NCBI GenBank assembly: GCA_013696525.1
Contig: JACCYK010000044.1
Coordinates: 1-10,910, forward strand
Length of the DNA: 10,910 bases
From: Chloroflexia bacterium
GTDB lineage: Bacteria; Chloroflexota; Chloroflexia; Thermomicrobiales; UBA6265
Direction of reading: 5' to 3'
Shown: in pieces, positions 1 through 10,910 of the stretch
How the letters are laid out: each line of letters begins with the position of its first letter
Numbering within the stretch: position 1 is the first letter of the stretch
The notes under the pieces: generated by a model
Databases searched by the model: none
What the model saw: the letters and a program-made list of their open reading frames with translations, nothing else
What the model was told of the DNA's origin: nothing
Position numbers and translations under genes: made by a program

Positions 1-276
1 GACGTATTCCTCACGCTCGAAAGTGGTGAGGATGATGACCCGCGTGGCGGGCGCGGCAGCGGTAATTTGCGCCGTGGCGGCGACCCCGTCCAGCTCCGGC
101 ATCTGGACATCCATCAGGACAATGTCGGGCCGCAACGCCAAGACGCGGGAAATCGCTTCCTGGCCGGTGGTCGCTTCCCCCACCACCTCGAAGCCGTCCT
201 CCAACTCGAGGATGGTGCGCAAGCCCTGCCGCATCAAGGTCTGATCCTCGGCCAGCACGATCCGGATGCTCGTCAT
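1..276 (-). CDS. NarL/LuxR-type response regulator, receiver domain only (3' part outside window)
   Basis: These 92 codons are the N-terminal receiver domain of a response regulator, the partner of the kinase just upstream. Visible receiver features are the acidic pocket E10-D11, the phospho-acceptor D56 in an 'LRPDIVLMDVQMPELDG' context, and T84/T85 after the 'RVIIL' strand. The conserved lysine and the expected C-terminal LuxR-type helix-turn-helix lie beyond the left edge, so the output domain is inferred from the kinase type and the close NarL-like match ('IRIVLAEDQTLMRQGLRTILE'). The ATG start overlaps the kinase stop by 4 nt (ATGA), implying translational coupling. The kinase would phosphorylate D56, and the regulator would then bind DNA, plausibly the dyads upstream of the export operon. 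The receiver call is firm; the exact regulon is a guess. Confidence 0.93.
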   Translation of the reverse strand, partial: MTSIRIVLAEDQTLMRQGLRTILELEDGFEVVGEATTGQEAISRVLALRPDIVLMDVQMPELDGVAATAQITAAAPATRVIILTTFEREEYV

Positions 277-1592
277 CGGGCACCCCGGTCCAGCATCAGG
301 TCACGCCGCGCTGCCGGCATCGCCTCGCCGGCGCCTGGCTCCGCCGTTGTTCCGTCGAGCGGAAACGTCGCCTCCACGATCGTGCCTCCCCCTGGCCGGG
401 GCAGAAGGCGAAGCCCGCCCCCCAGCTCCTCGGCTCGTTCCCGCATCCCGGTCAGACCGTAATGCCCGGAGCGGGCGAGCGCGGCGGGCGGCAGTCCCGT
501 CCCATCGTCCGCCACGCGGAGCACGATCGCCGCGCCCTGGCGACGCAGGCTGACGACGACGCTCCCGGCGGCGGCATGCCGCTCCACGTTTTGGAGCGCC
601 TCCAGCAGCACCGCCCACATCGCCGTCGCGATCGCCGGCGGCAGCTCCGGCACCTCGGGCGCGATCTCACTCGTCGCCACCAGCGACGTCCGCGCTTGCA
701 GCTCGGCCAGATGCTGGTGGAGATCGACCGGAACGTCCCGCGCTGGCGGGTGCCCCCGTTGGGCGATCGGCCCCCGCAGGTCATCGAGCGAGTGCCGCAG
801 ATCGACCATCGCTTGGCGGACCAGATCACGGGTGGCGCGCAGCTCGGTGACGCCCCGCGCCGGGTCGCGCGCGTAGAGTCGTTCGACGACCTCGAGTTTG
901 ACATTTACCGTGACCAGGGCATGGCCGAGGCTGTCGTGCATCTCGCGGGCCAACCGGGTCCGCTCCCGCAAGGCTGCCAGCTCATTCGCCTGGGCCGCGG
1001 CCCGGCGCAGCTCTTCGTGCGCCTGGCGCAGCTCCTCGACCAGTTGGGCCAGCCGCTCGCGCTGCCGCAGCAGCACCAGCGCCACGCCGAAGATGGAGAC
1101 CCACATCAGCACCTGCAAGACAATCGCTAAAACGGTCCCCAGATTGCCCTGGCGCACCAGACTTGGTACGTCGAAGCCGATGGCGACGACCGCGAGCAGG
1201 CCGGCGACCGGAACCGGCCAGCGGCGAAGCGGGAGGACGCTCATCACTTGGAGCGTGAGCGCGATCGCCAGTCCGAAGAAATCTCCGGAGTAAAGCCTGA
1301 GCAGGGCGAGGACGACCACGGTTTGGGCGGCGCCATAGACGGCAACCTGCCACGCCGGGGGAAACTCGGGCCCGCGGAAGACTCGGTGGAAGAGGAGGAA
1401 GAAGGTGGCGAGCAGGGCGGCCAGCCCGACCAGCGACCACCCCTGCAACGCCTCCGGCCGGTTCGCCTGGAGGCTCCAGAGGCCGAGGCCGGCGGTGAGG
1501 TAGGTGAGACCGGTCCAGAAGAGGACCACCCGCCCCTCGAACCGGCGATACGCCTCAGCCTCGTTATCGCCGCGCTGCCGGATGGCCGTCAT
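273..1592 (-). CDS. Sensor histidine kinase, HisKA_3 (DesK/NarL-partner) family
   Basis: This 439-aa membrane sensor kinase has about five hydrophobic segments in residues 22-175 with almost no extracytoplasmic domain, so it probably senses the membrane or works with the neighbouring exporter. A coiled-coil linker (about 176-212) leads to the dimerisation/phospho-acceptor helix 'LAREMHDSLGHAL', with H219 as the phosphorylated residue. The C-terminal HATPase_c domain shows the N box 'EALQNVERHA' (331-340), the G1 box 'ADDGTG' (361-366) and 'GHYGLTGMRERA' (about 377-388). The H-box form and short ATPase domain are typical of kinases paired with NarL-type regulators. It follows the ABC permease after a 148-nt gap that contains a strong hairpin, and it overlaps the regulator start by 4 nt. 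A 'TAAGGGG' tract 14-20 nt upstream is a distant ribosome-binding candidate. The stimulus is unknown; envelope stress or an antimicrobial is inferred from context. Confidence 0.95.
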   Translation of the reverse strand: MTAIRQRGDNEAEAYRRFEGRVVLFWTGLTYLTAGLGLWSLQANRPEALQGWSLVGLAALLATFFLLFHRVFRGPEFPPAWQVAVYGAAQTVVVLALLRLYSGDFFGLAIALTLQVMSVLPLRRWPVPVAGLLAVVAIGFDVPSLVRQGNLGTVLAIVLQVLMWVSIFGVALVLLRQRERLAQLVEELRQAHEELRRAAAQANELAALRERTRLAREMHDSLGHALVTVNVKLEVVERLYARDPARGVTELRATRDLVRQAMVDLRHSLDDLRGPIAQRGHPPARDVPVDLHQHLAELQARTSLVATSEIAPEVPELPPAIATAMWAVLLEALQNVERHAAAGSVVVSLRRQGAAIVLRVADDGTGLPPAALARSGHYGLTGMRERAEELGGGLRLLPRPGGGTIVEATFPLDGTTAEPGAGEAMPAARRDLMLDRGAR

Positions 1593-1694
1593 CAGCCTAC
1601 TATCAACCCCTTACCGGTCTATCCATTGCCGGATGCTGCCTGAACCCGGTAACGATGCGGTCACAGCATACCCGCATCGCCCGCCCGGCGCGGC

Positions 1695-1736
1695 GGATCC
1701 CGCCCAGGCCCCAATCGGGGAGCGTGGGCGGGATCC
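1695..1736 (-). terminator. Strong intercistronic hairpin just after the ABC-2 permease stop
   Basis: A perfect 12-bp inverted repeat (1695-1706 pairs with 1725-1736, arms GGATCCCGCCCA / TGGGCGGGATCC) encloses an 18-nt loop that itself contains CCCC-AATC-GGGG. It begins 4 nt after the permease stop. No T-run follows on the minus strand, so it is not a textbook intrinsic terminator. It could be a partial terminator or an mRNA-stabilising hairpin that sets transporter levels apart from kinase and regulator levels. Confidence 0.5.
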
Positions 1737-1740
1737 CGAT

Positions 1741-2490
1741 CTAGACGCGCGACTCCCAGCGAAACCAGCGGGCCACGACGAGTAGCGCCAGCACCCCGTA
1801 GCCAAGCAAGCCCGCCAGGTTGATCCAGACCGCGTGCAGCGCCTGATCGGAGGTCAGGATCGGCCGCAGCAGATCGACCAACAAGGCGGCGGGCGACCAT
1901 TGGGCGATGCGCTCCAGCCAATCCGGAAAGGCGTCGATCCCAATCACGAGGTTGCTCAGAAACAGGAGCGGGAAGTAGATCATGTTGCTGAGCACATTGG
2001 CCGCGCTGGCCGTCGGCGACGCGGCGGCCAGGGCCTGCCCGAGCAGGAGAAAGACCACCCCGCCCACCAACGTCACCAGCATCGCCGGGATCAGCGTGTC
2101 CCAGCCCGGCCGGACGCCGAAGACGACCATCGCCACGGTCACGATCAGCGCCGATTGCAGCATCACCAGCCCGAGCCGGACGACCGTGTAGGCGGCGACC
2201 AGATCGGTCACTGGCAAGGGAGCGGCCCGCAACCGCGGCAAGACGCCGCGATCGCGCATGGTCGCCAGCCAGGTGGCATCGCCGGCAAGCCCGGCAGTCA
2301 TGATGTTCATCACCAGAACGCCGGCCATCAACCAGGCCGCGACCACCCCCGGCGCCGCGCCAGAACCAAGGTTCGCCGCTCCCAAAACCAGCAGCAAGCC
2401 GATCGGGAACACGAAATACCAGAACAGTGCTTCCCGGTCTCGGAGATTCATCAGTCCGAACATTCGGGTCAATATCGCAAACCGTCGCAT
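1741..2490 (-). CDS. ABC-2 type transporter permease
   Basis: This 249-aa integral membrane protein forms the transmembrane half of an ABC exporter with the ATPase encoded just upstream. About six hydrophobic segments can be seen (residues near 22-40, 50-70, 101-124, 132-152, 166-186 and 222-242). The order is usual for ABC-2 permeases: an amphipathic N-terminus ending 'REALFWYFVFPI', a cytoplasmic 'MRDRGVLPRLRAAPLP' loop (78-93), and the 'NVLSNMIYFPLLFLSNLVIGIDAFPDWL' region (165-192) that is typical of drug or lipid exporters of the DrrB/YadH kind. Length is normal. The start is supported by an AGAGGAGA ribosome site 5 nt upstream (2496-2503). It sits 48 nt after the ATPase stop, in the same operon. 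The substrate cannot be read from sequence; a drug, peptide antibiotic or lipid is likely given the linked two-component system. Confidence 0.93.
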   Translation of the reverse strand: MRRFAILTRMFGLMNLRDREALFWYFVFPIGLLLVLGAANLGSGAAPGVVAAWLMAGVLVMNIMTAGLAGDATWLATMRDRGVLPRLRAAPLPVTDLVAAYTVVRLGLVMLQSALIVTVAMVVFGVRPGWDTLIPAMLVTLVGGVVFLLLGQALAAASPTASAANVLSNMIYFPLLFLSNLVIGIDAFPDWLERIAQWSPAALLVDLLRPILTSDQALHAVWINLAGLLGYGVLALLVVARWFRWESRV

Positions 2491-2538
2491 CGTCGTCTCC
2501 TCTGGTTTCGATTCATTCGCAACGTGACCGGGCAGACG

Positions 2539-3339
2539 TTACGCCGCGTCCGCCACGTAATCCTCGGCTGGCTCCGCCAACCGGCGGCCCGCCAGGGCCA
2601 GGAACACATCTTCCAAGTTCGGCTCGCGCCGGGCGGCCTCGGCGGCGGCCAGCGGCGGCGCGTGGCGTTCGATCAGCGCCGCCGGCGTCCCCAGCGCAAC
2701 CAGCCGGCCGGCGTCGATTATGCCGACCCGGTCGCAGAGCACCTGGGCCTCTTCCATGGAATGGGTCGTGAGGAGGACGGTTCGCCCTTCGTCCCGCAGC
2801 CGCTCGATGGCGCCCCAGACCCCGCGCTTCGCCTGGGGATCGAGCCCGGTCGTCGGCTCGTCCAACAGCACGATCGTCGGGCTGTTGACGACCGCCAGGG
2901 CCAGCGCCAGCCGTTGTTGCTGGCCGCCCGAGAGCTGGCCGGGCCGGGCCTCCGCCTTGGACTCCAAGCCGAAGCGCGCCAAGAGTGCCGCGATCTCTTG
3001 TGGGGATGGAAACTGCTCATACAGCGCGGCAAACAGCGCGACCATCTCCTTGACGCGCAGCATCGGGAAGAACGCCGTTTTCTGCAATTGGACCCCGAGC
3101 CGGCGTTTGACAGCAAACGGCTCCCGCGCCACATCGAGGCCATCGACCAGGATGGTGCCGGCGTTTGGCCGGCGCAAGCCCTGGATTGCGGCCAAGATCG
3201 TCGTTTTGCCGGCGCCGTTGGGGCCTAGCAGGCCAAAGACCTCGCCCCGGCGAATCTCGAGACTGAGCCCATCGACGACCGTGTGGTTGCCGAACTTAAC
3301 TCGTAGATCCTGTATGTCGATCATGACGTCGTGTGTCAC
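2539..3339 (-). CDS. ABC-2 exporter ATP-binding protein
   Basis: This 266-aa cytoplasmic ATPase powers the neighbouring permease. Motifs in order are Walker A GPNGAGKTT (39-47), Q-loop near Q86, signature LSGGQQQR (136-143), Walker B IVLLDEP (156-162), D-loop 'TTGLDP', and the H-loop His at 193 in 'LLTTHSMEEA'. The 'EDVFLALAGRRL' ending (243-254) is typical of the DrrA/CcmA-like exporter class, DRA family. The chosen start is a GTG, because GGAGAGGG lies 7 nt upstream (3347-3354). An in-frame ATG at codon 6 lacks such a site. It is the first gene of the putative operon ATPase, permease, kinase, regulator. Its upstream region carries two dyads suited to regulator binding. The drug- or lipid-export role is inferred from family and context. 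Confidence 0.95.
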   Translation of the reverse strand: MTHDVMIDIQDLRVKFGNHTVVDGLSLEIRRGEVFGLLGPNGAGKTTILAAIQGLRRPNAGTILVDGLDVAREPFAVKRRLGVQLQKTAFFPMLRVKEMVALFAALYEQFPSPQEIAALLARFGLESKAEARPGQLSGGQQQRLALALAVVNSPTIVLLDEPTTGLDPQAKRGVWGAIERLRDEGRTVLLTTHSMEEAQVLCDRVGIIDAGRLVALGTPAALIERHAPPLAAAEAARREPNLEDVFLALAGRRLAEPAEDYVADAA

Positions 3340-3582: not shown

Positions 3583-4971
3583 TCAGCCGGCCGGCTCGCT
3601 CGCGGCGTTCGCCCGCGCGGACCGGTCCGGCACCGTGCGTAAGACCAGCCAGCCGGCGATGCCGGCAATCAGCGACCCGGCGAGAATGCCGAGCTTGGCC
3701 GCGTTCGTGAGCTCAATCGAGGTGAAGGCGAGTCCGGTAATGAAGATGGACATCGTGAAGCCGATCCCGGCCAGCAGGCCGAGCCCCCCGATCTGTCGCC
3801 AGGTGACTTCGGCCGGGAGGCTGCTTAGGCGAAGGCGAACCACCAACCAGGTCGCCGCGATGATGCCGACCGGCTTGCCGAGCACGAGCCCGCCAACGAT
3901 CCCCAGGAGGATTGGGTCCGTCACCGCGGCGCTCAGGTCGGCTGGCAACGTCACCCCCGCGTTCGCCAGCGCAAACAGCGGCACAATACCGTAGGCAACC
4001 CAGGGATTGAGGCCATGCTCGAGCTGTTGCAACGGGGTCTCAGCCCGCGACGCCGAATCGTTCAGGCGGTGAATGATGGTCTGCTGGGCGTGATTGCTGA
4101 GCACCGATGCCGCCGGGCTGCTCGCCTCCGCCAGATCATCCAGCAGCCGCCGCCCCTCACTCACCAACTCCAACGGGTGAATCCAGGTCCGCACCGGGAT
4201 CATGAACGCGACGAGGACACCGGCCACCGTGGCATGGACGCCGGAGGCAAAGACCGCCAGCCAGACGCCGACCCCGAGCACGGCATAGACCGCCGGCTGG
4301 CGAACGCCGGCCCGGTTGGCCACGAATAGGGCCACGAGGAGAGCGGCTGCCGCGAGCAATGGCGTCACCTCCATGCCGCCGGTGTAGACGAGGGCAATGA
4401 CCAGGACCGCGCCGATATCGTCGATGATCGCCAGGGCGGTCAGGAAGATCCGCGCCCCGATCGGGATTCGGTCGCCGATCACCGCCAGCACGCCGAGCGC
4501 GAACGCGATATCGGTCGCCATCGGAATCGCCCAACCGTTGCTCCCCGCTGCCCCGGCGTTGAAGAAGACATAGATCAGGGCCGGGACCACCATTCCACCC
4601 AGCGCCGCCGCGATCGGTAGCGTGGCGCCGCGCCGGGTGCTCAGCTCCCCGACCAGGATCTCCCGCTTGATCTCGAGCCCGACCACGAAGAAGAAGAGGG
4701 CCATCAGGCCGTCGTTGATCCAATCCCGCAGGGAGTGGACCAACTCGACCGTGCCGATCGTGATGCTGGCGTCCAGGTTCCACAGCCGGGTGTAGCCGTC
4801 CGCCCACGGCGAATTGGCCCAGACCAGCGCCACCACCGTCGCCAGCAGCAACAGAATACCGCCCGACACCTGATCGGCCACGAAGGACCGAAACGGCGAC
4901 AGCGCCCGGTACAGCGGTAGCCCGCGATTAGTCGTCTCTAGCAGAACGGAGTCATCGAGCGGTTGCGGCAC
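3583..4971 (-). CDS. nhaA: Na+/H+ antiporter NhaA
   Basis: This 462-aa inner-membrane antiporter exchanges cytoplasmic Na+ (or Li+) for external H+. It matches NhaA along its length: 'ALSPFRSF...SGGILLLLATVVALVWANSPW' (23-56), the pH-sensing stretch 'GLEIKREIL' (98-106), 'ATDIAFALG' (152-160), the cation-binding Asp pair D184-D185 in 'AIIDDIGAV', and the lysine K366 in 'LGKPVGI'. These correspond to T132/D133, D163/D164 and K300 of the E. coli protein. The cytoplasmic loop at 270-325 is longer than in E. coli, as is common in GC-rich phyla. I start at GTG 4971 because AAGGAG (4979-4984) sits 7 nt upstream. The longer open frame to 5205 would read through the structured leader and has no conserved N-terminus. 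The gene has its own leader RNA, shared in kind with the next transporter upstream. Expression is probably cation- or pH-responsive. Confidence 0.96.
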   Translation of the reverse strand: MPQPLDDSVLLETTNRGLPLYRALSPFRSFVADQVSGGILLLLATVVALVWANSPWADGYTRLWNLDASITIGTVELVHSLRDWINDGLMALFFFVVGLEIKREILVGELSTRRGATLPIAAALGGMVVPALIYVFFNAGAAGSNGWAIPMATDIAFALGVLAVIGDRIPIGARIFLTALAIIDDIGAVLVIALVYTGGMEVTPLLAAAALLVALFVANRAGVRQPAVYAVLGVGVWLAVFASGVHATVAGVLVAFMIPVRTWIHPLELVSEGRRLLDDLAEASSPAASVLSNHAQQTIIHRLNDSASRAETPLQQLEHGLNPWVAYGIVPLFALANAGVTLPADLSAAVTDPILLGIVGGLVLGKPVGIIAATWLVVRLRLSSLPAEVTWRQIGGLGLLAGIGFTMSIFITGLAFTSIELTNAAKLGILAGSLIAGIAGWLVLRTVPDRSARANAASEPAG

Positions 4972-5000
4972 GCGGGCGCTCCTTGGACGTGGACACAATA

Positions 5001-5081
5001 CAAAAGGACGTACCAAAATGGCAGTCCCCTCCGTCAGCCAGGTGGATACGGGGAACCTGGCATCCCCATCGGCGTCGCGCC
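5001..5081 (-). promoter_or_regulatory. Structured leader RNA (riboswitch-like), copy A, upstream of nhaA
   Basis: Read on the minus strand 5' to 3': a short hairpin GGCG-CGA-CGCC (5081-5071); a G4 tract (5067-5064); a 7-bp stem GCCAGGT/ACCTGGC (5061-5055 with 5043-5037) with the 11-nt loop TCCCCGTATCC; TGACGGA; GGGGACTGCCA; a hairpin GGAC...GTCC (5027-5006); and TTTTG (5005-5001). The core from the G4 tract to ACTGCCA aligns without gaps to the element at 6624-6705 (38 of 49 identical). The nhaA ribosome site is 17 nt after TTTTG. A cis-acting cation or pH sensor is inferred. Na+-I (former DUF1646) and Li+-I (former nhaA-I) classes are candidates by context only. Confidence 0.75.
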
Positions 5082-5092
5082 AACTGAGCGGA

Positions 5093-5101
5093 AGGATACC
5101 A
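5093..5101 (-). promoter_or_regulatory. Candidate extended -10 promoter for the nhaA leader
   Basis: TGGTATCCT on the minus strand fits an extended -10 (TGnTAnnnT). No good -35 is seen. The start point would be near 5086, a few bases before the first hairpin of leader copy A. This matches the promoter-to-leader spacing of copy B. Confidence 0.4.
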
Positions 5102-5235
5102 GGTCGGCGTGTCGGATCGCGATTTCGGTCGTGAGCAACCGAATTCCAATCAATACTCCGCCGCCAAGGGGGCGGGCCAGGGCCGAGGGCACCCCATCCC
5201 CGCACCCGCCAGTCCGCCGTTTATCGGCAAGCAAC

Positions 5236-5248
5236 TGCCCGCGGGGCA
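5236..5248 (-). terminator. Short hairpin after the ArsB/NhaD-type transporter stop
   Basis: TGCCC-GCG-GGGCA (5-bp stem) begins 4 nt beyond the transporter stop on the minus strand. There is no T-run after it, so it is at best a weak terminator or a 3' stabilising hairpin. The rest of 5102-5235 holds no gene I can support; a TTCGGT-N8-ACCGAA inverted repeat lies at 5124-5143. Confidence 0.25.
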
Positions 5249-5251
5249 CGG

Positions 5252-6577
5252 CTAGAACGCGAAGTAGCGTAACCAGACGTAGAGACTGGCCACCACCAGG
5301 CTGACCAAGGCGAACGGCAACCCCACCCGGGTGAAGCCCCAAAACCCGATCGGCTCGCCCCGGCGCTCGGCAATCCCCACCGCCACCACGTTGGCCGAGG
5401 CCCCGACCATCGAGCCGTTCCCGCCGAGACACGCCCCGAGCGCCAGCGCCCACCACAGCGGCGCCACCGAGGCATGGGTCGCCAGTGCGGCGTCATCCAG
5501 GCCGGCCAGGTCCGGGAAGAGGAGCCTCGCCACCGAGAACGTGAGCGGAATCAAGGTCGCCACGGCGGGAATGTTGTCGACGATCGCCGAGGTGATGCCG
5601 GCGAACCAGAGGAGCACGAGGGCGGTCACCAGGATGTTGCCGCCGGTGAGGTCGACCGCGCCCCGCGCGATCCGATCCAGCAACCCGATCTCCTCGATCC
5701 CGCCAACAACGATGAAGAGCCCGATAAAGAAGAAGATTGTCGGCCATTCCACCTCGGCGAGCACGTCGTGGAGATCAACCCGGCTGAGCAGGAGCAGCAA
5801 GATGGCGCCGAACATCGCGATCGTGCCGGCCTGATAGTGGAGCGCGCCGTGCAGGATGAACCCCAGGATCGTCAGGCCCAGCACAATCAGCGCCCGGCGC
5901 AACAGGCGCCGATCACCGAGATGGACATTGGCTTCGGCCTGCCGCAACGCCTGCCTGGCCTCCGCCGTCGGCACCCCGAGGCGGTCGTTGCCCCGGTAGA
6001 TGAACCAGAATCCACCAAGCATCAGCACCAGCAAGACAAGGACCACGGGCCCGAGATTGGCGAGAAAATCGAGAAAGGTGAGACCGGTAGCGCTACCAAT
6101 CAAAATGTTGGGCGGATCGCCGATGAGGGTAGCGGTGCCTCCGATGTTACTGGCGATGACCTCGGTAATCATGAACGGCCGCGGGTCGAGCCCGAGATCG
6201 TCACAGATGGCGATGGTGACCGGCACAATCAGCAGGATCGTGGTCACGTTGTCGAGAAAGGCGGAGCCGACGGCGGTAAAGAGCGTGAAGCCGACAAGCA
6301 ACCGCCACGGGTCACCCTTGACGGCGATGGCGGTTTTCCAGCCAGCGTAGCGGAAGATGCCGGTCCGCTTCAACACGTTGACGATGATCATCATCCCGAC
6401 CAGGAGGACGATGGTATTGGCATCGATCGCCTCCAGCGCCTGCTGCTGGTTCAGCACGCCGAAGGCGATCATCAAGCTGCCGCCGGCCAACGCCACAACC
6501 GTCCGGTCGAGCCGCTCACTGATGATGACCGCGTAGGTGATCAGAAAAATCGTCGTGGCGACCGTGATCTCCGTCAT
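5252..6577 (-). CDS. ArsB/NhaD-type ion transporter (probable Na+/H+ antiporter)
   Basis: This 441-aa polytopic membrane protein belongs to the ion-transporter superfamily (ArsB, NhaD, CitM, SLC13). It has the two inverted pseudo-repeats of the fold, each with a re-entrant hairpin: 'SAFLDNVTT' (105-113) followed by 'ASNIGGTATLIGDPPN' (142-157), and 'SAIVDNIPA' (330-338) followed by 'LGGNGSMVGASAN' (384-396). About 11-12 hydrophobic segments are present. Family members move Na+/H+, arsenite or dicarboxylates. I favour Na+/H+ because the gene neighbours nhaA and carries the same leader RNA; no ars genes are present. I start at ATG 6577 ('MTEITVATTIF'). The open frame continues to 6655 but its N-terminus is Arg/Gly-rich and overlaps the leader. 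The ribosome site is diffuse (GAGGGAAGTGGGGGG just upstream). Confidence 0.9.
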   Translation of the reverse strand: MTEITVATTIFLITYAVIISERLDRTVVALAGGSLMIAFGVLNQQQALEAIDANTIVLLVGMMIIVNVLKRTGIFRYAGWKTAIAVKGDPWRLLVGFTLFTAVGSAFLDNVTTILLIVPVTIAICDDLGLDPRPFMITEVIASNIGGTATLIGDPPNILIGSATGLTFLDFLANLGPVVLVLLVLMLGGFWFIYRGNDRLGVPTAEARQALRQAEANVHLGDRRLLRRALIVLGLTILGFILHGALHYQAGTIAMFGAILLLLLSRVDLHDVLAEVEWPTIFFFIGLFIVVGGIEEIGLLDRIARGAVDLTGGNILVTALVLLWFAGITSAIVDNIPAVATLIPLTFSVARLLFPDLAGLDDAALATHASVAPLWWALALGACLGGNGSMVGASANVVAVGIAERRGEPIGFWGFTRVGLPFALVSLVVASLYVWLRYFAF

Positions 6578-6623
6578 ACCCCCCACTTCCCTCGCGCGGC
6601 GGTCCGGCCGGCGGCATGCACAG

Positions 6624-6705
6624 CAAAAGGGACCGCCACTGGCAGTCCCCCCCATCAGCCGCGCGGGTACGGGGTACGCGGCGCCCCCGGCGCTGCCTCA
6701 GCGCC
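6624..6705 (-). promoter_or_regulatory. Structured leader RNA (riboswitch-like), copy B, upstream of ArsB/NhaD-type gene
   Basis: Minus strand order: perfect 7-bp hairpin GGCGCTG-AGG-CAGCGCC (6705-6689); GGGGGC (6688-6683); stem GCCGCG/CGCGGC (6682-6677 with 6663-6658) with loop TACCCCGTACCCG; TGATGGG; GGGGACTGCCA; a GC-rich hairpin GGGAC...GTCCC (6649-6629, loop AGT); TTTTG (6628-6624). Compared with copy A, stem pairs change together (A-U to G-C, G-C to C-G), while the loop CCCCGTA, the TGA, and GGGGACTGCCA are unchanged. The last hairpin plus T4 could terminate transcription. A long 46-nt stretch then leads to the start codon. Confidence 0.75.
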
Positions 6706-6717
6706 CATGCACCCGCG

Positions 6718-6745
6718 AGTATACCCGACCCAACGGATCGTCGAA
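6718..6745 (-). promoter_or_regulatory. Candidate sigma-A promoter for leader copy B
   Basis: The minus strand reads TTCGAC (6745-6740), 16 nt, TATACT (6723-6718). The predicted start is near 6711-6709, a few bases before the first hairpin of copy B. The -10 is a 5/6 match to the consensus; the -35 is weak. Confidence 0.5.
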
Positions 6746-7243: not shown

Positions 7244-7611
7244 GGCTGATGGAAGGGGTTGAAGTCACCAAGACACCACGGATCAAAGCCGCCCTGGCCG
7301 AACTCCAACAGATGATCGCCGGGCGGTATCCACCCGCAACGTTTTCGGACACGATCGGCACCGATCCGATCGGCTTCTACCTTGATGTAACGGCTGATGT
7401 CGACGACACCGATGAAGTATGGGAACTCATCGTCGACCGTCTTGTCGACATCCAGGTAGAAGACGAGTTGCCCATCCAAGTCTCCCTGCATCAGACCCCA
7501 GAACGCCAGGAGGCAGCATGGCGCGAGTATCTGGCGACGCGAGCGGCGGCGAAAGAGAGCGAGGCGGTTGTGTCGCGAGCCGTCACCGCCGCCTTGGCGC
7601 TGCCCGATTAG
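7240..7611 (+). CDS. Small uncharacterised protein partnered with the HEPN gene
   Basis: This 123-aa acidic protein begins at ATG 7240, overlapping the HEPN stop (ATGA), with GGGAGAG 7 nt upstream as its ribosome site. Its N-terminus (residues 10-30, 'TKTPRIKAALAELQQMIAGRY') looks helical. The conserved-looking core is 'PPATFSDTIGTDPIGFYLDVTADVDDTDEVWELIVDRLVDIQVEDELPIQVSLHQTPER' in layout (31-89): an alternating beta-strand, Asp-rich turn, helix, strand pattern. The tail (90-123) is an Ala-rich helix. It has no nucleotidyltransferase GSxxxG motif, so it is not the MNT partner usual for HEPN pairs, and no DNA-binding motif is seen. It resembles, from memory, small proteins coupled to HEPN genes in Chloroflexota and cyanobacteria, but I cannot name the family. 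An antitoxin or regulatory role is inference from the coupling only. It ends tail to tail with the ABC ATPase gene. Confidence 0.8.
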   Translation: MRLMEGVEVTKTPRIKAALAELQQMIAGRYPPATFSDTIGTDPIGFYLDVTADVDDTDEVWELIVDRLVDIQVEDELPIQVSLHQTPERQEAAWREYLATRAAAKESEAVVSRAVTAALALPD

Positions 7612-8399
7612 GTTTTCACCAGCTGCAAGAAGCGTTGGGTCCGCTCGTGACCGGGGGCGGTGAAGAAGCGGTCCGGCGGCGCTTCTTCGATGATCTCGCC
7701 CTCGTCCATCATCACGATCGCGTTGGCCGCTTCGTGCGCGAAGCGCATCTCGTGACTGACCACGATCATCGTCATCCCCTCGGCCGCCAGCTCCTCCATC
7801 ACGTCGATCACCTCCCGCACCAGCTCGGGATCGAGGGCCGAGGTCGGCTCGTCGAAGAGCATCACCCGCGGCCGCACCGCCAGGGCGCGGGCGATCGCGA
7901 CCCGCTGCTGCTGGCCGCCGGACAGCTCGTGCGGGTAGCGTCCGGCCCGGTCCCCCAGCCGGACCCGGTCCAGCAGCGCCATCGCCTCCGCCTCGGCCTG
8001 CCGCTTCGGCGTGTGGCGGACATGCATCGGCCCGACCATGACATTTTGCAGCGCGGTCAGGTGCGGAAAGAGGTTGAAGTGCTGGAACACCATGCAGAGC
8101 TGGGAGCGGTACGGCGCCAGCCGGCGCTCCGTGCCGCCCCCGGCCCCAACCTTCCAGCTCACGTCACGCTGTTCGAGGACCACCCGTCCGGCATCGACCG
8201 GCTCCAGCAACGCCAGGCAGCGTAAGAACGTGCTCTTACCCGACCCGGACGGCCCGACGATCACCTTCACCTGGCCCCGCGCCACCGCTAGCGAGACGCC
8301 GCGCAAGACCTCGAAGTCGCCGTACCGCTTAACGAGGTTATCCGCCTCGATCATCGGCCCCGGCTCGGCGGGCACGGTGGGCGCGGGGTCGATGCTCAC
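7608..8399 (-). CDS. Polar amino acid ABC importer, ATP-binding protein
   Basis: This 263-aa ATPase is of the GlnQ/HisP class and energises uptake of polar amino acids with the permease and binding protein upstream. Motifs are Walker [10 protein letters not shown] (49-57), Q-loop Q106 in '[13 protein letters not shown]' (hallmark of this class), signature LSGGQQQR (159-166), Walker B VMLFDEP (179-185), and H216 in 'VVSHEM'. A short variable insertion '[14 protein letters not shown]' (81-94) precedes the Q-loop. I start at GTG 8399, whose GTGA overlaps the permease stop, suggesting coupled translation. ATG at 8354 would give a 248-aa protein nearer the family norm and remains possible. The open frame to 8468 overlaps the permease and is rejected. 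The stop codon shares bases with the convergent gene at 7611. Confidence 0.95.
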
Positions 8400-9133
8400 C
8401 GGTTCACCGTCACGATCGCGGGCACGGCCGCGGCGGCGCCGCGACGCCCTTCCGCCCGCGAGGTCCATTGGTAGCGGCGCTCCAGCCGGCTCTGGAGGAG
8501 CATGAAGATGCTGACAATGAGCAGATACCAGACGGTGGCCGCCGTGTAAAGCTCGGCGAAGCGAAAATTGACCGACACGGTCTGGCTGGTGATCGTCAGC
8601 AATTCCCGCAACGAGATGACCGAGGCCAGCGAAGTCAGCTTCAGCAAGGTGATGAACTCGTTGCCGGTCGGCGGGATGATGACCCGGATCGTTTGCGGCA
8701 TGACAATCAGGCGAAAGACCTGGCCGCTGGTCAGGCCGAGCGTCTTGCCGGCCAGGACTTGGCCCTTATCGACCGCGTTCAACCCGGACCGGATGATCTC
8801 GGCCATGTAGGCCGCCTCGTTCAGGGCCAGGGCGACGAAGGCCGCCAGGAACGGCGTGAACCACGGATCGCGCAGGCTGGGGATCAACTGCGGCAGCGCG
8901 TTCCAGACAAAGAGCAACTGGAGCAAGGTCGGAATGGCGCGGAAAAGCCAGACATAGGTGGCGGCAACCCAGCGCAGGGGAGCGATCGGCGAGGCCCGCA
9001 ACAGGGCGACGCCGAGGCCGATCACGATCGCCGCCGCTTGGGCCGCGGCGGCGAGCCCGATCGTCAGCGCCGCCCCGGAGACAAACGCCTCCGAGGTCAG
9101 CGCGTCAACGAAAATCTGCCAGTCAAACTCCAT
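8396..9133 (-). CDS. Polar amino acid ABC importer, permease
   Basis: This 245-aa membrane protein is of the HisM/GlnP family. The first hydrophobic segment (18-45) is followed by 'ATYVWLFRAIPTLLQLLFVW' in layout (59-77), the family's 'RgtPllvqL' motif, and then 'NEAAYMAEIIRSGLNAV' (105-121). The coupling loop that contacts the ATPase reads 'GQVLAGKTLGL' (124-134), where most relatives have GQ-x-EAA-x-x-LGL, so the Glu is replaced by Leu and the last Ala by Gly. 'VMPQTIRVIIPP' (144-155) follows, as expected. The C-terminus has a short Arg/Ala-rich tail (about 225-245). The ATG is preceded by GGAAG 5 nt upstream. It lies 39 nt after the binding protein gene and overlaps the ATPase. Both halves of the membrane channel are probably homodimers, since only one permease gene is present. 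Confidence 0.94.
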   Translation of the reverse strand: MEFDWQIFVDALTSEAFVSGAALTIGLAAAAQAAAIVIGLGVALLRASPIAPLRWVAATYVWLFRAIPTLLQLLFVWNALPQLIPSLRDPWFTPFLAAFVALALNEAAYMAEIIRSGLNAVDKGQVLAGKTLGLTSGQVFRLIVMPQTIRVIIPPTGNEFITLLKLTSLASVISLRELLTITSQTVSVNFRFAELYTAATVWYLLIVSIFMLLQSRLERRYQWTSRAEGRRGAAAAVPAIVTVNR

Positions 9134-9155
9134 CGCGGCTTCCGCATCCCTGGAT

Positions 9156-9169
9156 GGGCGATCCCGCCC
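9156..9169 (-). other. Intercistronic stem-loop between binding protein and permease genes
   Basis: GGGCG-ATCC-CGCCC (5-bp stem) sits 3 nt after the binding-protein stop. Stem-loops here often stabilise the 5' message so that the binding protein is made in excess. No T-run follows. Confidence 0.35.
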
Positions 9170-9172
9170 GCG

Positions 9173-10069
9173 CTAGCCGGCCGGCGTCGCCTCCGCCGTG
9201 GCGTCGCTCTCAAACTCGTTGAACTCGACCCCCTCGACCGGCAGGCTCCAGGTCTCGGCGATCATGACGGTGGCGCCGTCGTCGCGCATGGCCTCGACCG
9301 CGTCCCGCAACGCCGCCGACAGCTTCGGCGAATCCTGCCGGTGGTAGATGCCGAAGGTCTGGGGCTCGTCATAGGTGTAGGCGATCTTGAACTGGCCGGG
9401 CTGGGCGATCGCCCGGAAGGCGGCTTCCGTGTCTTGGGTGATCGTGGCCTCGGCCCGGCCAACGATCAGTTGCTGGATCGCGTCCGTCTGGTCCGGGTAG
9501 AGCTGAATGTCGATGGCGGGGCTGCCGGCCGCCTGCACCTCTTCGTTGAGCGCGTTCATGATCTCGACGTAGTTGGTGCCGGACTGGACGGCGACCGTCT
9601 TCCCGGCCAAGTCCTCCGGCGACGTGATCTCGTCATTGTCGGCATTGGTCATCAGCACGATCGAACTGTTGTAGTAGGGTTGGGCGGCAAAGGTTTCCAG
9701 CCGCTCGGCGGTGAGGTAGATGCCGCTGGCGACGACATCGCAACGGCCGGCCTCTAGCGCCGGCAGCAAGCCGGTGAACTCGGTCGGGATATGCTGGACC
9801 TCGACCCCCCACCGAGCGCCAATCGCATTGATCAGATCGATGTCGAAGCCGACCGGCGTCGTCGCGTTCTGATCCTCGAAGAACTCCATTGGCGGGAACG
9901 AGGGATCGACACAGTTGGTGAGGACGCCGTCATCGCCCACGATCGCCGCCATGTCCGCCGGCGGCGTCGCCTCCTGGGCCAGGCCGGCCGAGACGAGCAA
10001 CGCGCCCGCCACGAGCGAGGTCAGGACGCCGGACCCAAGCGTCCGGCGGTCACGGGGAACGAGCTTCAT
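9173..10069 (-). CDS. Polar amino acid ABC importer, substrate-binding protein
   Basis: This 298-aa exported protein is of family 3 (SBP_bac_3). It has a basic N-region (MKLVPRDRR), a hydrophobic core (12-29) and a probable cleavage after 'SAGLA' (27-31). There is no lipobox Cys, so it is either free or anchored in another way. After a Thr/Pro-rich linker the domain begins 'VLTNCVDPSFPPMEFFED' (49-66), then 'GFDIDLINAIGARWGVE' (74-90), 'TGLLPALEAGRCDVVASGIYLTAERLETF' in layout (99-127, with R123 expected to bind the amino acid carboxylate), 'VAVQSGTNY' (159-167) and 'GRAEATITQDT' (204-214). The C-terminus is a short Ala/Thr/Pro/Glu tail. I start at ATG 10069, 8 nt after GGAGAGG (10078-10084), not at the upstream in-frame ATG 10129. 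The ligand is unknown. A basic or guanidino amino acid fits the divergent ureohydrolase gene. Confidence 0.94.
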   Translation of the reverse strand: MKLVPRDRRTLGSGVLTSLVAGALLVSAGLAQEATPPADMAAIVGDDGVLTNCVDPSFPPMEFFEDQNATTPVGFDIDLINAIGARWGVEVQHIPTEFTGLLPALEAGRCDVVASGIYLTAERLETFAAQPYYNSSIVLMTNADNDEITSPEDLAGKTVAVQSGTNYVEIMNALNEEVQAAGSPAIDIQLYPDQTDAIQQLIVGRAEATITQDTEAAFRAIAQPGQFKIAYTYDEPQTFGIYHRQDSPKLSAALRDAVEAMRDDGATVMIAETWSLPVEGVEFNEFESDATAEATPAG

Positions 10070-10103
10070 GGGATTCGCCTCTCCGCTTAGTAGCGCCGGG
10101 CTC

Positions 10104-10130
10104 TTGCCGTGCGGCGCCAGCCAATACAAT
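10104..10130 (+). promoter_or_regulatory. Candidate promoter for the ureohydrolase gene
   Basis: TTGCCG (10104-10109) and TACAAT (10125-10130) are separated by 15 nt, slightly short. The start point would be near 10137, giving a leader of about 93 nt that contains the structures at 10154-10225. Confidence 0.35.
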
Positions 10131-10147
10131 CGTGGAAACTGGGGACG

Positions 10148-10176
10148 ATTCTACTTGGTCCGGGGCGCTGGCGGAA
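10148..10176 (-). promoter_or_regulatory. Candidate promoter for the amino acid importer operon
   Basis: On the minus strand TTCCGC (10176-10171), 17 nt, TAGAAT (10153-10148). The -10 is good and the -35 poor. The leader would be about 70 nt. It overlaps the divergent leader of the ureohydrolase gene. Confidence 0.3.
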
Positions 10177-10225
10177 CCTGGTCCTTAGCGCGCCACACCA
10201 AGCTATCGCGGGGAGGAGTTCGCGA
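10154..10225 (+). promoter_or_regulatory. Structured leader of the ureohydrolase gene
   Basis: Nested inverted repeats: outer CTTGGT/ACCAAG (10154-10159 with 10197-10202) and inner GCGCT/AGCGC (10165-10169 with 10187-10191), extendable by two pairs across a bulge. A second hairpin, TCGCG/CGCGA (10206-10210 with 10221-10225), places the GGAGGAG ribosome site in its loop. Pairing could modulate translation. It matches no RNA family that I recognise. Confidence 0.35.
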
Positions 10226-10229
10226 ACCG

Positions 10230-10910
10230 ATGGCTGACGATGAGATGACACTGCTGGAGGCGCTCTGGTGGTGGGGCGTGCCCTCGCTCTTCCGCTGCCC
10301 GGTCAACCCCGACCCGGCCCAATGCGACATCGCCCTGGTGGGGGTGCCGCACGCCGCCGGCAACGGCTCGACCGAGCGAGACCAGCACCTGGGCCCGCGG
10401 TCGGTGCGCAATGTCTCCGCCCATAACCGGCGGCTGCACAAGGCGTTCGGCTACTTCTCGCCCTGGGAGGCCTGCCGGATCCACGACCTGGGCGACGTGC
10501 CGCTGCCGGAGGCGATGGCGAACGAAGCCTGCATCGAGCGGATCAGCCGCTACTACCGGCGGATCGCGGACGCGAAAACTCGCGTCGTCTCCATCGGCGG
10601 CGATCACTCGATCTCCGGCGCCATCCTGCAAGCGATCGCTGGCGAGGGCTCGGCCCTGACCGAAGGGAAACCGGTGGCGCTGGTCCACATCGATGCCCAC
10701 ACCGACACCTACGAGAATATCGAGCACTGGATGGGGGCCCGCAAATCGGCCGCCCACTGGGCCGCCTACACGGTGCGCCAGGGCAACGTCGATCCCGCCC
10801 GGAGCACCCAGCTCGGCATCCGGGGCAACACCCGCTCCCGCGACTGGCTGAAGACCTCGCGCGACCTCGGCTACGACCTGATCGAGATGGAGCGCTACCG
10901 CGAGCTCGGC
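10230..10910 (+). CDS. Agmatinase / ureohydrolase (arginase family), 3' end outside window
   Basis: These 227 codons, open to the right edge, encode a manganese- or nickel-type metallohydrolase that removes urea from a guanidino compound. The binuclear metal site shows as GGDHS (123-127, H126) and DAHTD (155-159: D155, H157, D159). The N-terminal motif is 'GVPHAAGNGSTERDQHLGPRSVRNVSAHN' in layout (38-66), with the GPR-x-x-R signature conserved. The second-shell segment reads 'AHWAAYTVRQG' (175-185) where agmatinases and guanidinobutyrases usually have HGTPFR, so substrate specificity may differ. 'TQLGIRGNTRSRDW' (193-206) is typical of the family. The remaining Asp residues (SFDxDxxDP) would lie beyond the edge. 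GGAGGAG is 11 nt before the ATG, a little far. The gene diverges from the amino acid importer, suggesting catabolism of the imported compound or polyamine synthesis. Confidence 0.92.
   Translation, partial: MADDEMTLLEALWWWGVPSLFRCPVNPDPAQCDIALVGVPHAAGNGSTERDQHLGPRSVRNVSAHNRRLHKAFGYFSPWEACRIHDLGDVPLPEAMANEACIERISRYYRRIADAKTRVVSIGGDHSISGAILQAIAGEGSALTEGKPVALVHIDAHTDTYENIEHWMGARKSAAHWAAYTVRQGNVDPARSTQLGIRGNTRSRDWLKTSRDLGYDLIEMERYRELG

Follow-up and report, generated by a model that had tools for sequence, protein, structure and literature searches.

The closest described systems are short leader RNAs that precede cation transport genes. As set out in the available text of PMC9337991, Na+-I riboswitches regulate Na+ transport genes, those of the napA type among them, by way of a terminator that the bound ligand blocks, a competition described for some members, and the available part of PMC9646797 adds nhaD to the genes that they precede. 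The same part of PMC9646797 places Li+-I (nhaA-I) RNAs, including Na+-sensing variants (Na+-II) with a terminator as expression platform, in leaders that precede nhaA and other genes for antiporters, and reports Li+-II (nhaA-II), likewise a nhaA leader RNA, only from some Gammaproteobacteria. The nqrA-II motif of Pasteurellaceae, a Na+-related candidate whose ligand is open, lies before a Na+ transport gene and has four stem-loops, according to the available text of PMC11109978.

Here we describe a leader RNA that occurs twice in the window, a stretch of 10,910 nucleotides (nt) from a Chloroflexia bacterium (assembly GCA_013696525.1, contig JACCYK010000044.1), once before nhaA and once before the gene of a CitMHS/ArsB-type transporter, both on the minus strand. 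Comparison of 29 copies from 23 genomes reveals a conserved predicted fold, a terminator-like hairpin, a position before genes and an association with antiporters, and the RNA is probably an undescribed class among cation-responsive riboswitch candidates. Like some Na+-I members it is predicted to be coupled to a terminator. Its consensus differs, however: Na+-I has a GGUU..P1..AAG spacer and then a hairpin with a GGGGUG loop, and Li+-I has GGGUGC..P1..GCAGGU..P2 with a GGGCCG loop. The RNA described here instead carries a G-tract, predicted to form a pseudoknot with a CCCSKUAYCC loop, and GGNGG on the 3' side. Li+-II, whose model has 84 positions, is set apart by score and not by consensus, and the nqrA-II motif is set apart, on that paper's description only, by its four stem-loops and its different host group.

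The original prediction, made from the letters of the window, had raised Na+-I and Li+-I as classes to which the leaders might belong, but the Rfam models for Na+-I (RF03071), Li+-I (RF03057) and Li+-II (RF03038) placed neither leader in any of them. Searches of the window and of each leader alone returned only matches far below gathering scores, some of which overlapped the leaders and were rejected (sR51, 11.9 bits; MIR1437, 17.5 bits; Scr4115, 15.5 bits). None of the three families was listed for the leaders at E values up to 10, and none came up at E values up to 5 in a search that covered 19 of the other 27 loci, where the sole Rfam match lies outside the RNA. Within the genome of the window, the best matches to the three models lay elsewhere than the leaders and reached 15.5 bits against a cut-off of 40.5 for RF03071, 18.4 against 37 for RF03057 and 22.4 against 70.4 for RF03038; the control exceeded the cut-off in one of 14 genomes for each of the first two and in none of 14 for RF03038, whose search is thus without a positive control. 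Compact pseudoknot sensors beside an expression platform are also a feature of the preQ1-I, guanidine-III and fluoride riboswitches, whose conserved bases and genes differ from those of the present RNA and whose families were unlisted for the two leaders and the 19 relatives at the same E values. A literature search, with supplements and subscription papers outside its coverage and absence from print therefore not established, found no paper on such an RNA among those listed, and the available texts of PMC9646797, PMC9337991, PMC11109978, PMC8632094 and PMC2864571 describe none.

Two leaders and their relatives in Chloroflexota

The original prediction held that the leaders of nhaA and of the second gene, there called ArsB/NhaD-type, share one architecture on the minus strand, and both were found where it had placed them. 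The best ungapped match between them (5067-5019 versus 6688-6640) has 38 identities in 49 positions, exactly the gap-free core claimed; among 200 dinucleotide-shuffled leader pairs the best ungapped 49-nt match had at most 28 identities (mean 24.0). The compensatory changes described for the middle stem are present as G-C/A-U at alignment columns 11:30, C-G/G-C at 12:29 and U-G/U-A at 14:27. The proposed order of parts required revision: 'GGGGACTGCCA, hairpin, TTTTG' is a single element, a terminator-like hairpin with GGGACTGCC as its 5' arm and TTTT as its T-tract, and the first hairpin (P1), visible in both leaders, has little support, since 86 and 89 out of 200 shuffles of that stretch gave folds at least equally good. 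Neither the terminator nor the pseudoknot formed part of that prediction, and both supply the likely mechanism. The single-sequence folding energy of the whole leaders was also unremarkable (z of -1.26 and -0.89); support for the leader RNA comes from comparison.

Starting scans with an 11-base piece and a 21-base pattern covered 61 genomes. They were unspecific, reversed control patterns giving similar counts, and were discarded as evidence; among the 20 stretches fetched from them, six, in other genomes, hold the whole architecture. With a covariance model built from eight sequences (R1) and a limit of E ≤ 0.01, matches turned up in 14 of the 32 family genomes, in 19 of 158 genomes from the class and in 16 of 400 from a phylum sample, with false matches in the tails of the lists. 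From 43 R1 matches we dropped seven as opposite-strand or second matches at the same loci, and ten more in which the loop or the terminator was missing (L064, L071-L074 and L082-L086). A second model (R2), built from the 26 best sequences, had matches at E ≤ 0.001 in 16 of 158 genomes of the same class (G034 by one weak match only) and in nine of 29 genomes of a second class (G307 by weak matches only), and at E ≤ 0.0001 in 10 of the 400 genomes of the phylum sample; the counts are lower bounds wherever more than 40 genomes were scanned, since these runs were strictly filtered and few candidates were scored in them. Four weak R2 matches (L103, L104, L105 and L107; 29.7-31.2 bits) keep GGNGG and the terminator arm with the loop absent or distorted, and were not counted. 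One of these, L105, precedes a sigma-70 region 2 gene, and by eye both of its pseudoknot strands are changed together (CGGCG with CGCCG). The final alignment (A5) comprises 29 good copies, drawn from 23 genomes that belong to two classes of Chloroflexota (15 in the class of the window and eight in the second), with a mean pairwise identity of 0.70 and a lowest of 0.43.

An exact pattern run against a collection of 84,980 species genomes was found in 12 places, 11 of them in assemblies titled Thermomicrobiales, Chloroflexia, Chloroflexi or Chloroflexota, all metagenome assemblies by title; these 11 are copies already found by the models, and none was additional. The twelfth, in a Competibacteraceae record (L112), is false, being a CAAAGGGGGG-type repeat without the structure of the RNA. 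Only 11 of the 29 members fit this strict pattern, so the lack of matches elsewhere carries little weight.

Predicted structure of the leader RNA

The elements follow one another as a -10-like hexamer, the optional P1, (C)GGG(G), two free nt, P2 with its loop, 2-4 nt, GGNGG, the terminator-like hairpin, a T-rich tract and the gene, with a core of about 67 nt. P2 has about seven pairs and a loop that is mostly RCCCSKUAYCC, in which columns 16-18, 21 and 24 never vary and columns 21, 22 and 24 are U in 29, A in 28 and C in 29 of the 29 members. In A5, two-sided changes were observed in all seven P2 pairs and in eight of nine terminator pairs (15 of 16), giving the conserved, covarying 5' leader structure that is looked for in a riboswitch.

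The G-tract is predicted to pair with the CCC of the loop as an H-type pseudoknot, which the search and alignment models did not contain. At column pair 2:19 the 29 copies have G-C in 13, C-G in nine, A-U in one, U-G in one and other combinations in five, G-C and C-G each being present in both classes, and this was the top-ranked Watson-Crick-like pair outside P2 and the terminator in a scan of all column pairs. When the four-pair pseudoknot was taken alone, 95.7% of cells paired, as compared with 86.4% in shuffles and at most 69.8% with slid partners. With five pseudoknot pairs included in the named structure, pairing was seen in 95.3% of cells (80.5% in shuffles, at most 50.7% with slid partners), 17 of 21 pairs changed on both sides, and none of 500 shuffles reached any of the five measures. 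The exchange of G-C for C-G at one pair thus supports the predicted pseudoknot between the G-tract and the loop.

Every member (29 of 29, counted without a background control) has a predicted hairpin of -7.6 to -18.3 kcal/mol followed by five to eight T in the next 9 nt, and this covarying terminator-like hairpin would provide the expression platform expected of a riboswitch. One-sided changes in its pairs number 24 on the 3' arm and two on the 5' arm. Together with the near-invariant loop, this asymmetry is suggestive of a further constraint on the 5' arm, such as an overlap with the sensor would impose; the arm would then also be part of the sensor, and sensor and terminator would compete.

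Upstream of the core, the best -10-like hexamer lies at a distance of 20-28 nt in 19 of the 29 members and of 9-13 nt in three members without P1, again counted without a background control. P1, a hairpin whose sequence varies freely, is seen in many members and is missing from others. It was first assumed to belong to the core and was dropped as optional after the shuffle test, in which 0 of 29 members beat 95% of their own shuffles, and because several members have no hairpin there.

Genes downstream of the leaders

Two of the 29 members end within 113 nt at a contig edge, which leaves 27 with a readable downstream gene; the reading frames were chosen by hand. Cation/proton antiporters follow 22 of these 27 copies, with the CitMHS/ArsB type in nine cases, CPA2 in six, NhaA in three, CPA1 in three and an MrpA-like protein in one. 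CPA1 and CPA2 were assigned by PF00999, and NCBIfam backs the split for six of the nine, above the curated cut-off only for L070; L076, L079 and L080 were put in CPA2 by likeness, by eye, and the MrpA-like protein (L063) is cut by the end of the locus and falls below its cut-offs. The link to cation/proton antiporters that had been drawn from two genes holds far beyond them: a covariance model made from the window copies and their relatives, searched in Chloroflexota, brought up more copies before antiporter genes, and the larger alignment of 29 copies shows covariation. Neither outcome that the original prediction had named as refuting it, a lack of further examples or of covariation, was observed. 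Location before cation transport genes is a feature shared with Na+-I riboswitches and is insufficient for membership of that class. With NhaA presumably in CPA and CitMHS/ArsB in IT, the CPA, IT and Mrp superfamilies are all present among the downstream genes. These are the superfamilies into which prokaryotic Na+/H+ exchangers are grouped in the available text of PMC9408914.

From the gene side, a search with the CitMHS/ArsB-type protein at E ≤ 1e-60 gave 10 matches in nine of the 32 family genomes, one of them a C-terminal fragment, and the RNA lies just upstream of nine of the nine matches that have a 5' end. One CitMHS/ArsB-type match (L127, G008:C181:3725-5038) contains a single in-frame TAG, perhaps the gene's own earlier stop near its end. 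In another locus (L106), a short frame at 117-353 between the RNA and nhaA resembles by eye the C-terminal end of a CitMHS/ArsB-type protein, as if the leader had lost its own gene and now served nhaA.

The RNA is present twice in the genome of the window and three times in each of G005 and G025, where the copies precede different genes; these multiple copies make up a small regulon. One copy precedes a gene for HflK (L078, 1588-2712), which scores above its own HflK cut-off and has an SPFH/Band 7 domain, and such genes, like the NfeD1b type, may place membrane quality control under the same signal. Side observations in this group are that L065 precedes an NfeD1b-type membrane protein and that the weak copy L104 (131-1264) also precedes an SPFH/Band 7 gene.

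The positions of both leaders and their genes are collected in Table 1. The 441-residue transporter met no NCBIfam cut-off and its CitMHS/ArsB-type name comes from distant similarity; its relatives of solved structure include VcINDY-type carriers and an ArsB. The host assembly is fragmented (3.6 Mb, 689 contigs, about 79% complete), and the window is its contig 215. Elsewhere in the window, 1-3339 and 7608-10129 hold a histidine kinase beside an ABC-2 transporter and an amino-acid-type ABC transporter set (Pfam), and a plus-strand frame at 9915-10910 resembles agmatinase/arginase by eye.

Table 1. Genes, RNA elements and putative promoter elements at the two leaders of the window
Feature	Position	Strand	Evidence
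nhaA, Na+/H+ antiporter, 462 amino acids from the chosen GTG start	3583..4971	minus	PF06965 4.8e-150; TIGR00773 422.8 bits (cut-off 254)
CitMHS/ArsB-type membrane transporter, 441 amino acids, upstream of nhaA	5252..6577	minus	PF03600 6.4e-92; PF02040 (ArsB) weaker, 1.3e-15
Conserved RNA core, copy 1, before CitMHS/ArsB-type gene	6624..6689	minus	R1 83.9 bits, R2 74.6 bits; copy included in both models
G-tract, predicted pseudoknot 5' strand, copy 1	6685..6688	minus	Alignment A5, columns 2-5
P2 hairpin, copy 1, loop ACCCCGTACCC; CCCC 6674-6671 as predicted pseudoknot 3' strand	6658..6682	minus	Covariation
Terminator-like hairpin, copy 1, GGGACTGCC-AGT-GGCGGTCCC with TTTT	6625..6649	minus	Hairpin -16.0 kcal/mol; covariation
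P1 hairpin, copy 1, GGCGCTG-AGG-CAGCGCC, optional, weakly supported	6689..6705	minus	86/200 shuffles fold equally well
Possible -10 box TATACT, promoter of CitMHS/ArsB-type gene	6718..6723	minus	Sequence
Conserved RNA core, copy 2, before nhaA	5000..5068	minus	R1 68.3 bits (5002-5068), R2 59.0 bits (5000-5068); copy included in both models
G-tract, predicted pseudoknot 5' strand, copy 2	5064..5067	minus	Alignment, covariation
P2 hairpin, copy 2, loop TCCCCGTATCC; CCCC 5053-5050 as predicted pseudoknot 3' strand	5037..5061	minus	Covariation
Terminator-like hairpin, copy 2, GGGACTGCCA-TTT-TGGTACGTCCT with T-tract	5002..5028	minus	-10.8 kcal/mol
P1 hairpin of nhaA leader, optional, weakly supported	5069..5083	minus	89/200 shuffles fold equally well
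Possible -10 box TATCCT, nhaA promoter	5093..5098	minus	-10-like hexamer search

A candidate ON switch and its alternatives

The order of promoter, fold, terminator and gene is that of a transcription-attenuating riboswitch. We propose, with about even confidence, that the RNA is a cis-regulatory pseudoknot riboswitch of an undescribed class, an ON switch that would relieve termination when Na+ rises, Li+ or alkaline pH being less likely signals. Transcription would start just upstream of the RNA, and the nascent transcript would form a compact H-type pseudoknot in which CCC(S) of the P2 loop pairs back to GGG(G), 2 nt upstream of P2. The ligand would bind directly, the likely site being UAYCC, the fixed part of the loop, together with GGNGG further downstream, which leads directly into the 5' arm of the putative intrinsic terminator. 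Without ligand the terminator would form and transcription would stop before the antiporter gene, while with ligand the pseudoknot would hold the GGNGG/GAC region and the polymerase would read through; competition between sensor and terminator is assumed to operate by packing or pseudoknot geometry. From the gene association we infer Na+, Li+ or pH sensing, as the original prediction did. We prefer Na+ on the ground that Na+(K+)/H+ exchange is common to the downstream families, and an ON response is favoured because it fits efflux genes and the Na+-I precedent in the available text of PMC9337991.

Several observations weigh against this proposal. The ligand is guessed from the genes, and five of the 27 downstream genes do not encode antiporters (one HflK, one NfeD1b, one methyltransferase and two with no Pfam hit, L068 and L101). 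Counting the four weak copies, antiporters follow 22 of 31; CPA2 proteins can also move K+, and the gene-side test covers the CitMHS/ArsB type only. With respect to the fold, the A4 and A5 alignments were fitted to the structure of P2 and the terminator, and in the all-pairs scan couple 6:15 outranks 2:19, yet pairs in only 43%. Three of the four pseudoknot pairs are invariant and uninformative, the fourth mispairs in five of 29 members, a fifth (1:20) fails in 13 of 29, and for the four-pair pseudoknot two measures out of five, the pairs that change on both sides and the pair types (133/500), do not exceed shuffles. As for the terminator, besides the uncontrolled hairpin count, the T-run starts directly after the stem in 23 of 29 members and not in the other six, and a simple terminator scan of the window listed neither hairpin, perhaps because G-U pairs let the stem extend into the T-tract. 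The asymmetry between its arms is partly expected from G-U rules, because a 5' G still pairs when a 3' C becomes U, and no conserved antiterminator helix was found, the partners of the 5' arm in the upstream-only fold varying by member. A promoter scan requiring a -35 box listed none on the minus strand between 4900 and 6800.

The same kind of riboswitch might instead bind Li+, as another, unrelated Li+ sensor that switches on antiporters for detoxification, although we consider this unlikely. In the available text of PMC9646797, Li+-I and Li+-II mainly control nhaA and Li+-I sometimes nhaD, which would suit the three nhaA and nine CitMHS/ArsB-type genes among the 27, but Li+ riboswitch associations beyond nhaA are described there as rare. 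Fifteen of the 27 readable genes are neither nhaA nor of the CitMHS/ArsB type. An RNA that responds to pH or protons and turns the antiporters on in alkali, with protonation of a C or A of the UAYCC loop, above the GGG:CCC helix, as the sensing event, has a similarly small likelihood: pH homeostasis in alkali is another role of the antiporter types found, loop columns 21, 22 and 24 are almost invariant, and MrpA-like, HflK and NfeD1b genes would suit an alkali or membrane-stress regulon equally as a Na+ one, but we know of no validated natural riboswitch with the proton itself as ligand. Na+ sensing accounts for the same genes and has a precedent in the available text of PMC9337991. Slightly less probable still is the specific version in which a direct proton riboswitch, by a change of protonation in the CCCSKUAYCC loop over the GGG:CCC helix, would free the RNA from termination in alkali and switch on several antiporter families, HflK and NfeD-type proteins in uncultured Chloroflexota.

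The ligand could also be an organic signal such as cyclic di-AMP (c-di-AMP), or some compound that one of the transporters exports, a doubtful reading at about the level of the direct proton riboswitch. c-di-AMP controls ion transport in other bacteria and small H-type pseudoknots commonly bind small molecules, but the downstream families share cation/proton exchange and are not known to have an organic substrate in common. The occurrence of Na+ and c-di-AMP riboswitches in tandem (available text of PMC9337991) is in its favour, whereas no Rfam riboswitch family was listed on the window RNA or on 19 of the 27 other loci. An attenuator that works through a bound protein or without any ligand, the conserved leader being either recognised by an antiterminator protein that binds RNA or a constant brake on expression, is the least probable explanation, since the near-invariant loop, the compact covarying pseudoknot and the 5'-arm-biased conservation of the terminator exceed the needs of a passive terminator, even though a leader and terminator alone would give the same anatomy and the folds showed no alternative helix that is conserved.

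Few RNA classes are known for alkali cation sensing, and a further one, if the proposed Na+ riboswitch is true, would mean that this recognition problem has been solved again by RNA. Its pseudoknot core of about 67 nt, unlike others in sequence, would then be a small testable object for discrimination of Na+ from K+ or Li+, or for pH sensing, and several antiporter families would form, together with HflK and NfeD, one salt or pH regulon in Chloroflexota.

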